A stretch of DNA of 64,000 nt from Thermoplasmata archaeon (lineage in GTDB: Archaea > Thermoplasmatota > Thermoplasmata > Lutacidiplasmatales > UBA184), in the NCBI GenBank assembly GCA_022750055.1, contig JAKIWL010000001.1, positions 372,001 to 436,000 of the forward strand, read 5' to 3'. The notes under the pieces are model-generated. The model did no database searches, was not told the origin of the DNA, and saw nothing but the letters and a program-made list of their open reading frames with translations. This document shows positions 11,548 through 56,396 of the stretch, piece after piece; position 1 is the stretch's first letter; each line of letters begins with the position of its first letter. The translations under genes were made by a program, and so were the position numbers.

Positions 11548-12489
11548 ATGGGTTCCTCGATCACGGTCGCGGTGGTCGGGGCGCGCGGCATCGCCCCGGC
11601 GCTGGGAAAGAAGGGAACCCAGTCGGACCTGACGCTCTTCAACGCCGTCCGGGACGGTCACGCCGCCACGATCGTTGAACCCACCCAGTTCCCCGAGCGA
11701 TTCGCCCCCCTCCTCTATGCCCTCGCGATGGCCGACCGGACCCTGCTCGTCGTCTCCGAGCTTTCCCGAGAGATCGCGGAGACCGTCGCTACCGTCGACC
11801 TGTTCGATATGGCGGTCGAACTTGTCCTCGGGGCCGGAGTGGGGGAGGCCGAGGTCCACAGGGCCTTCAAGGGGACCCGGGTCGAAGCGTCCATCGCCAC
11901 CCCCCTCGACCTGCCGAGGCTGAGGAGCGAGCTCGACAACTGGGAGGCCCCGCCGTACGAGCCGGGCCCGATGCTCGTGCGGATCGACCACGCCTTCCCG
12001 GTGAAGGGGGTCGGGGCGGTCGCCCTCGGGGTAGTCCGTCGCGGCACCCTGAACGCGCACGACCGGCTCCGCCTGTATCCCGGCGAGAAGGTCGTGGAGG
12101 TCCGCTCGATCCAAGTGCACGACGTCGAGGCCCGCTCGGCCTCGGCCGGCGAGCGCGTCGGGGTCGCCCTGCGGGGCGTCGAGGCGGAGGAACTGGCCCG
12201 GGGTCAGACCCTCGCTCCCGAGGGGACGATGTCCGTGGGGCAGACCTTCAAAGCCCACATCGAGCGCCGGTGCCCGTACTACCGGGGGAGGATCGCCCCC
12301 GGCGCACCGATGCAGCTTCTCGCCGGGCTTCAGCTCGTACCGGTCCGGCTCGGGTCGGTGGAAGGCGACGAGCTCGCCTTCGACTCCGACCGCCCGGTCG
12401 CGTTCGTGCCGGGGGAGAGCGCCCGGCTCTCCGACCCATCGGCCGCGCCGGGCCCTCGGATCGTCGCCCGGGTCCGGCTCGCCGGTTGA
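11548..12489 (+). CDS. SelB-like elongation-factor paralogue with degenerate G domain (aSelBL type)
   Basis: The 313-residue protein has the domain order of SelB/EF-Tu. The N-terminal domain lacks the GHVDHGKT P-loop and has GARGIAPALGKKGTQSDL in its place, with no NKxD motif. Two OB-like barrels follow, seen in VKGVGAVALGVVRRGTL, LRLYPGEKVVEVRSIQVH and AGERVGVALRGVEAEELARG. This matches the archaeal SelB-like family described as widespread in archaea without selenocysteine and presumed unable to hydrolyse GTP. Its function is not known. It starts 5 nt after clpB and is probably co-transcribed. I see no Sec machinery in the window. Confidence 0.7.
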   Translation: MGSSITVAVVGARGIAPALGKKGTQSDLTLFNAVRDGHAATIVEPTQFPERFAPLLYALAMADRTLLVVSELSREIAETVATVDLFDMAVELVLGAGVGEAEVHRAFKGTRVEASIATPLDLPRLRSELDNWEAPPYEPGPMLVRIDHAFPVKGVGAVALGVVRRGTLNAHDRLRLYPGEKVVEVRSIQVHDVEARSASAGERVGVALRGVEAEELARGQTLAPEGTMSVGQTFKAHIERRCPYYRGRIAPGAPMQLLAGLQLVPVRLGSVEGDELAFDSDRPVAFVPGESARLSDPSAAPGPRIVARVRLAG

Positions 12490-17444: not shown

Positions 17445-17547
17445 TAGCGGGGCATGGATTTGAACCATGGATCTACGGGTTATGAGCCCGTCGGGATTTC
17501 AGGGCGGAGGGAACTCCCCGCCGCTTTCCTGACTACCCCACCCCGCT
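17445..17547 (-). tRNA. Initiator tRNA-Met (CAT) with a 28-nt intron in the D loop
   Basis: Removing minus-strand bases 17525-17498 leaves a 75-nt cloverleaf. Its acceptor stem is AGCGGGG/CCCCGCT with A73, the D stem is GGGT/TCCC, the anticodon stem is ACGGG/CCCGT around CTCATAA, and the T arm is CATGG-TTCAAAT-CCATG. A1-U72 and the three G-C pairs of the anticodon stem mark it as the initiator. The insert folds as GCGG/CCGC and places CAGG opposite CCTG, with a 3-nt AAA bulge on each side. That is a bulge-helix-bulge pattern, and cutting inside both AAA bulges restores the mature D loop exactly. The weak part is the outer helix, which is short. Confidence 0.88.
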
Positions 17548-25511: not shown

Positions 25512-25666
25512 CCGTGCCTGCCGTCAGAGACCCACGAACATCCCTTTCAACTTGAGCCTCGAATGTCAGCCGCCCACTCGATGCCGAAGTGACCATCTGG
25601 ATCCGAACGACCGCGTCCGTACCGGAGACTCACTATCCGACCGCGCGGCCCAGAGCGAGAGAAGCG

Positions 25667-25739
25667 AGCCGCGGGAGGGAATCGAACCCTCGACCTGCTC
25701 CTTACCAAGGAGCCGCTCTACCGACTGAGCCACCGCGGC
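25667..25739 (-). tRNA. tRNA-Thr (GGT)
   Basis: The minus strand gives a complete 73-nt cloverleaf. The acceptor is GCCGCGG/CCGCGGC with T73, as in archaeal tRNA-Thr, and the D stem is GCTC/GAGC. The anticodon arm is GCTCC-TTGGTAA-GGAGC (anticodon GGT) and the T arm is GAGGG-TTCGATT-CCCTC. No intron is present and the CCA end is not encoded. Confidence 0.96.
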
Positions 25740-56061: not shown

Positions 56062-56162
56062 GCAGGTGTAATCTAGCGGTAGGATGTCAGCCTTCCAAGC
56101 TGACCACCCGGGTTCGAAACACCGGCAGGGCCGACCTGCGGGCGGAACTCCCGGCGCCTGCA
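56062..56162 (+). tRNA. tRNA-Gly (TCC) with a 30-nt intron in the T loop
   Basis: Removing 56119-56148 leaves a 71-nt cloverleaf. Its acceptor is GCAGGTG/CGCCTGC (one G-U pair) with A73, the D stem is ATCT/GGAT and the anticodon arm is TCAGC-CTTCCAA-GCTGA. The variable region is CCAC and the T arm is CCGGG-TTCGAAT-CCCGG. The insert interrupts the T loop after TTCGAA. TTCG pairs with CGGA as a 4-bp helix next to the T stem, with bulges AAA and ACT; cutting inside both gives the exact mature loop. The insert itself folds GCAGG/CCTGC. The inner helix has a G-G mismatch, so the motif is relaxed. Confidence 0.84.
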
Positions 56163-56226
56163 TCCCACTCCCCCAACCGCGGCGACCGACGGATTTACAG
56201 GCGGGACGCCCCTTTGGACTCCGCAT

Positions 56227-56310
56227 GCTGAGGTAGCCTAGCCCGGAAAGGCGCCAGCCTTGAAAGCTGGTGGCGGTAACGCCACGGGAGTTCAAATCTC
56301 CCCCTCAGCG
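56227..56310 (+). tRNA. tRNA-Ser (TGA)
   Basis: An 84-nt tRNA with acceptor GCTGAGG/CCTCAGC, discriminator G73 and anticodon loop CTTGAAA in stem CCAGC/GCTGG. It has a long variable arm (TGGCG-GTAA-CGCCA) and T arm GGGAG-TTCAAAT-CTCCC. No intron is needed. Confidence 0.96.
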
Positions 56311-56396
56311 ATTTCCCGTGGTCCCGCGGGTCCCGGAACTGCGACGGCGCGCCTGGGGCGTGGACCGAAGCGCTCGGCCCTTCGTTCACCGGACCC

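Follow-up and report, generated by a model that had tools for sequence, protein, structure and literature searches.

The tRNA-Gly(TCC) gene at positions 56062-56162 (+ strand) of the window, the 64,000-nucleotide stretch of DNA analyzed here, is interrupted by a 30-nt intron (56119-56148) that lies between A59 and T60 of the T loop (TTCGAA^...^T-CCCGG), that is, at position 59/60. We consider it very probable that this is a genuine bulge-helix-bulge (BHB) intron that would be cut by a single α′2 endonuclease and sealed by a single RtcB ligase, at a site favored by the T-loop sequence. On balance, it is likely that the whole family to which this genome belongs (f1) filled this T-loop slot with introns in about one in three of its tRNA genes while keeping an α′2 endonuclease without the specificity loop, with no broad enzyme required. 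The gene and the three other tRNA genes of the window comprise the following features.

56062..56118, + strand: tRNA-Gly(TCC) exon 1 (from the sequence, the Rfam tRNA model, and intron removal)
56062-56068, + strand: Gly(TCC) acceptor 5′ strand, part of exon 1, with the D arm next
56094-56096, + strand: Gly(TCC) anticodon TCC
56108-56112, + strand: Gly(TCC) T stem 5′ strand
56113-56118, + strand: Gly(TCC) T54-A59 (TTCGAA)
56119..56148, + strand: Gly(TCC) intron, 30 nt, A-CA-[CCgGCAGG...CCTGCgGG]-CGGA-AC
56149..56162, + strand: Gly(TCC) exon 2, T60 first; CCA is absent from the gene
56150-56154, + strand: Gly(TCC) T stem 3′ strand CCCGG
56155-56161, + strand: Gly(TCC) acceptor 3′ strand CGCCTGC
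56162, + strand: Gly(TCC) discriminator A
56226..56311, + strand: tRNA-Ser(TGA), uninterrupted, ~64 nt downstream of Gly(TCC) (ARAGORN, Rfam)
25666..25739, − strand: tRNA-Thr(GGT), uninterrupted (ARAGORN, Rfam)
17445..17547, − strand: initiator-like tRNA-Met(CAT) with a D-loop insert of ~29 nt (Rfam)

The Gly(TCC) locus reads GCAGGTG-TA-ATCT-AGCGGTA-GGAT-G-TCAGC-CTTCCAA-GCTGA-CCAC-CCGGG-TTCGAA-ACACCGGCAGGGCCGACCTGCGGGCGGAAC-T-CCCGG-CGCCTGC-A, in which ACACCGGCAGGGCCGACCTGCGGGCGGAAC is the intron. The first-pass annotation had placed a 30-nt T-loop intron after TTCGAA at these coordinates, which hold: in silico deletion of the insert restores a full cloverleaf with 7/7 bp in the acceptor stem, 5/5 bp in the T stem, the T loop TTCGAAT, the anticodon TCC, and a T at position 60. 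The site at 59/60 excludes the canonical 37/38 placement, one base 3′ of the anticodon, and the insert is not a group I or group II intron, being 30 nt long in a window where the Rfam scan returned tRNAs only. The same annotation had called the BHB relaxed, a description that suits one half of the motif. The 5′ bulge is indeed enlarged (AA|ACA, 5 nt versus 3 in a strict BHB), whereas the 3′ half is regular, with a 4-bp central helix (TTCG/CGGA) in which the intron CGGA pairs with T54-T55-C56-G57 and a 3-nt bulge (AC|T). The forced BHB fold of the precursor lies 0.6 kcal/mol above the minimum-energy fold, in which the central helix is open, an observation that counts against the proposed BHB splicing.

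Standard tools handle such genes poorly, as had been anticipated. ARAGORN reports two of the four tRNAs in the window (Thr and Ser); it finds nothing in the unspliced Gly(TCC) gene and returns tRNA-Gly(tcc) once the intron is removed. The Rfam tRNA model finds all four but misplaces the Gly(TCC) end at 56127, inside the intron, because it pairs intron bases with the acceptor-stem 5′ strand. The initiator-like tRNA-Met(CAT) is missed by ARAGORN and found by Rfam with an insertion. Its D-loop intron is genuine, so that two non-canonical introns do occur, in different arms, among the four tRNAs of the window.

An inventory of the genome, assembled from Rfam, pattern, and covariance-model searches together with targeted stretches, locates 44 tRNA genes. 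The genome-wide Rfam search contributed 38 loci; the others, Leu(TAG), Lys(TTT), His(GTG), Pro(GGG), Pro(TGG), and Trp, came from the pattern and covariance-model searches. The lack of Leu(TAG), Lys(TTT), His(GTG), Pro(TGG), and Trp in the Rfam list again bears out the expectation about annotation tools. The 44 genes carry 14 T-loop introns at 59/60, 5 D-loop introns, and 4 introns at 37/38, distributed as listed below; the 14 T-loop cases were scored by script and the other intron assignments were made by eye from the sequences.

T-loop introns (A59/T60), 30-35 nt each: Arg(TCG), Arg(TCT), Gly(TCC), Asn, Gln(CTG), Asp, Glu(CTC), Ala(GGC), His, Lys(TTT), Leu(TAG), Ser(GCT), Ser(GGA), Ser(CGA)
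D-loop inserts: initiator-like Met, Arg(GCG), Pro(TGG), Leu(TAG), Lys(TTT)
37/38 introns: Tyr, a Met(CAT), Leu(TAA), Trp

With the intron removed, all 14 T-loop cases have 7/7 acceptor and 5/5 T-stem pairs and T at position 60. The suggestion that this lineage carries many non-canonical tRNA introns was thus an understatement, with 19 in 44 genes and a T-loop set that extends across the family. Two genes outside the Rfam list, tRNA-Lys(TTT) (contig C1:460154-460293) and tRNA-Leu(TAG) (contig C4, about 11881-12025), appear doubly interrupted, in both the D loop and the T loop, and a D-loop insert is present in tRNA-Pro(TGG) (contig C3:189036-189141). Neither Ala(TGC) nor Pro(CGG) was recovered by the Rfam, pattern, and covariance-model searches of this assembly, which is an estimated 94% complete, and the five matches to a Pro-directed pattern include none recognizable as a tRNA from the matched strings; the two genes either lie within the missing part of the assembly or are more heavily disrupted. 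Automatic annotation of this acid-soil order can therefore miss or truncate many tRNA genes (here Leu(TAG), Lys(TTT), His(GTG), and Gly(TCC)), which biases tRNA-based estimates of completeness and codon usage.

The T-loop introns extend well beyond this genome. We trained a covariance model on eight of its T-loop-intron precursors, and the model recovered the Lys precursor, on which it had not been trained, at 58.6 bits. At E ≤ 1e-12, a class-wide sample of 101 genomes yielded 5-9 matches in each of the 15 genomes of the family; outside it, 18 genomes gave exactly one match and 68 gave none. A phylum-wide sample of 117 genomes included five of the family, again with 5-9 matches each, and the others had 0-2. 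Judged by length, a few of the family's matches at this threshold lack an intron, and a model trained on one family may under-count distant introns. Genomes from several genera of the family have interrupted genes for at least Asp, Arg(TCT), Gln, Ala, and Asn, and all 107 distinct T-loop introns from it occupy the 59/60 site. The named relatives of its splicing endonuclease are Thermoplasmata MAGs that include AcS/SubAcS genomes and UBA184, which have been placed in one family of Ca. Lutacidiplasmatales (PMC9287336). Judged, indirectly, by these endonuclease relatives, f1, a family of the Thermoplasmatota, and with it this genome probably belong to the order Ca. Lutacidiplasmatales. The word "intron" is absent from the Lutacidiplasmatales paper (PMC9287336), and the main texts of the openly accessible papers searched contain no description of such introns in Thermoplasmatota or Thermoplasmata.

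Most of the lone matches outside the family that we read are tRNA-Arg(TCT) genes whose intron, 22-24 nt long, occupies the same 59/60 site, a pattern that suggests that the Arg(TCT) intron predates the expansion in the family and may be ancestral to the class. Other lone T-loop introns were seen in an anticodon-CAT tRNA (family f20), tRNA-Glu(TTC) (f19), and tRNA-Arg(CCG) (f5), a scatter that suggests independent gains at one slot. Families f5, f7, f19, and f20 share with this genome the site after TTCRAA and the same BHB, with introns of 22-32 nt, but they mostly have one interrupted gene per genome, as opposed to about 14 here.

The introns of the family share a common construction. In our BHB model, the T stem forms the outer helix and T54-T55-C56-R57 pairs with a run of four intron bases, after which two more lead to the 3′ junction; the bulges A58-A59|n1 and NN|T60 are 3 nt each and cut after the second base, and the intron stem follows. 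With a central helix of at least 3 bp, bulges of exactly 3 nt, and at least three of the first four intron-stem pairs required, the model is satisfied by 95 of the 107 introns as compared with 3.4% of shuffled introns, percentages that come from non-independent samples because the introns share a common ancestry. The first eight intron-stem positions are paired in 79-93% of cases versus 43-55% when halves are swapped between introns, and pairing drops to 25-65% in shifted registers. Most of the family's introns are thus near-strict BHBs rather than loosely relaxed ones, a result that goes beyond the first-pass annotation.

The intron also follows the exon base at position 57. When 13 introns from outside the family are included, the base opposite G57 is C in 57 of 60 cases, and that opposite A57 is G in 48/60 and T in 6/60. 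The resulting A·G opposition, at the terminal position of the central helix in A57 tRNAs, recurs across genera. With introns of A57 tRNAs the central helix is limited to three standard pairs, and a complete basal stem (4/4 pairs) is found in 41 of 56 of these introns versus 21 of 51 introns of G57 tRNAs. The Asn(GTT) intron is a perfect BHB. Most A57 tRNAs combine a 3-bp helix with the A·G opposition and have a BHB fold about 2.5-3.3 kcal/mol above the minimum-energy fold, so that the motif is near-strict geometrically but energetically weak.

These regularities suggest how one site could come to be favored. The near-invariant T-loop sequence would itself supply half a BHB, since in every tRNA T54-T55-C56-R57-A58-A59 would contribute the exon side of the central helix along with two of the three bases in the 5′ bulge. 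Any intron with an NRAA-NN end and a basal stem would then rebuild a near-strict BHB atop the T stem, and a narrow homodimeric endonuclease could consequently process introns at a non-canonical position. Under this scheme, the intron of pre-tRNA-Gly(UCC) would be excised by the lone α′2 endonuclease and the exons joined by the lone RtcB ligase; it would belong to a set of at least 14 in the genome, most of them probably inherited vertically from the ancestor of the family. Recent transposition of introns between tRNA genes was considered and rejected, as none of the 306 intron pairs within one genome has a pairwise similarity above the 99.9% null; some orthologous introns of close species do resemble each other. 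The similarity pattern points to vertical descent with fast drift.

The genome encodes candidates for both processing steps. RtcB is represented by one gene (E=5.6e-168), and on contig C3 a single PF01974 gene encodes a two-unit protein of 353 aa. Exactly one such pair of domain matches, and no further one, is present in 30 of 31 genomes of the family; the missing part of this 94% complete assembly could still hide a second endonuclease subunit, which the family-wide scan makes unlikely. The catalytic Tyr, His, and Lys of the C-terminal unit (Y291, H299, and K330) are invariant in 23 sequences and align with 1a79 and 1r0v, and the protein matches A. fulgidus EndA (1r0v) over residues 21-335. 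Its predicted fold (pLDDT 91.6) has fused M. kandleri EndA and A. fulgidus EndA as its best full-length structural matches, with TM-scores by query length of 0.88 to the former and 0.76-0.79 to full-length chains of the latter. By sequence and predicted fold, the enzyme is of the α′2 type. The catalytic unit (residues 185-353) aligns with M. jannaschii EndA (1a79) over 171 residues with inserts of at most two residues. The CSL/ASL (crenarchaeal or ARMAN) loop is absent: the CSL of the chimera 3p1y lies between YGS and the next strand, a link that here is RIGD. The enzyme therefore lacks the loop insert with a Lys near the active site that marks a broad-specificity EndA.

In the published view, non-canonical tRNA introns are tied to broad-specificity (αβ)2 or ε2 endonucleases with an extra loop: α4 and α′2 enzymes are said to cut canonical BHBs only, and relaxed, displaced introns are said to accompany CSL/ASL enzymes (PMC4033280, PMC6379350, PMC12397907). 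Another group holds that homodimeric enzymes can cleave BHL-like motifs too, and the homodimeric EndA of Ferroplasma, another member of the Thermoplasmata, cuts BHBs outside tRNA (PMC8707768). The intron set described here is compatible with both the narrow and the BHL-capable view; its retained bulge geometry favors the former.

It is possible, if rather unlikely, that the intron is real but that EndA gained broad specificity by an unrecognized route, for example through its enlarged N-terminal unit, in which case strict BHB geometry would be irrelevant. That unit is longer between core strands than its counterpart in A. fulgidus EndA, several introns are relaxed, Gly(TCC) among them, and D-loop introns exist as well. 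The extension, however, is common to relatives throughout the class, whereas proliferation of T-loop introns is limited to one family among the genomes scanned; moreover, the catalytic unit has no insert of more than two residues relative to M. jannaschii EndA and nothing at the CSL position of 3p1y, and most introns keep exact 3-nt bulges. We thus favor a narrow α′2 enzyme for the T-loop set. The D-loop introns show no evident strict BHB, and the argument for a narrow enzyme may therefore not extend to them. The D-loop insert of tRNA-Arg(GCG) (contig C3:209974-210081) looks by eye like a relaxed HBh′ motif, which would be harder to square with such an enzyme.

T-loop introns as such are already known, and 59/60 is among the published non-canonical sites of the Thermoproteales (PMC4090602); the variant found here is new. 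Thermoproteales likewise have short, BHB-like introns that interrupt the D and T arms, and some of their genes carry two. They differ in using many sites, an (αβ)2 endonuclease with a CSL, and similar introns shared by transposition (PMC4090602, PMC4033280), whereas in this genome one T-loop site dominates, the introns are unlike each other, and the enzyme is an α′2 type with no CSL/ASL. Korarchaeum cryptofilum also combines a homodimeric endonuclease with non-canonical tRNA introns and was described in a 2014 review as the only archaeon with an α2 enzyme and such introns, but its enzyme bears a specific loop (PMC4033280) that the enzyme of this family lacks. A further parallel is the α′2 EndA of Archaeoglobus fulgidus and Thermoplasma acidophilum, a two-unit polypeptide with the catalytic Tyr/His/Lys and no CSL/ASL that is classed as narrow (PMC6379350); here the same type stands alongside many displaced introns. 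If the proposed scheme is correct, introns can proliferate at non-canonical positions without a broad-specificity enzyme, TTCRAA acting as a portable BHB half, and an α′2-only family with many T-loop introns would depart from the accepted rule that enzyme type and intron position co-evolve, with the intron geometry showing how a narrow enzyme could cope.

Comparison within the genus bears on whether the insert is removed at all. A pattern for any stretch from anticodon to T loop of Gly(TCC), interrupted or not, has one match in the 1.52-Mb genome and one in each of nine further congeneric genomes; the 20 others in the sample, most of them incomplete, had none. The first-pass annotation had proposed a check of sister genomes, and the same loop is interrupted in all 10 congeneric orthologues found, directly after TTCGAA, by introns of 29-34 nt. 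Averaged over pairs of these orthologues, identity reaches 96.6% in exon 1 and 96% in exon 2 as compared with 43% in the intron, which in this respect is like the 60-bp flanks (43% and 35%). Frozen exons around a drifting insert argue for a functional gene from which the insert is excised and not for a pseudogene. Retention of the insert in a tRNA that functions with an enlarged T loop is very improbable. The spliced form of Gly(TCC) is predicted here from the gene sequence, which leaves room for such a reading, but the insert drifts as the flanks do, its covarying stem and NRAA end fit a processing signal, one insert site is shared by 14 isoacceptors, and tRNA T loops must dock with the D loop.

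Least probable of all is a degenerate or mis-assembled gene (a pseudogene or a mobile insertion): the genome does resemble a metagenome assembly and T-arm inserts are typical of integration sites, but the identical structure occurs in many independent genomes, the locus is the only one found for an essential anticodon, and with 0/306 intron pairs above the 99.9% null no mobile intron family is visible. A second, intact Gly(TCC) gene, which the first-pass annotation had set against its own reading, was looked for and not found in the assembly; a copy could lie in the missing part. A role for the introns in shielding the 3′ half of the tRNA from integrases is a matter of speculation. GGA codons are in normal use near the locus, with 10 in a Cdc48-like gene and 10 in MutS.
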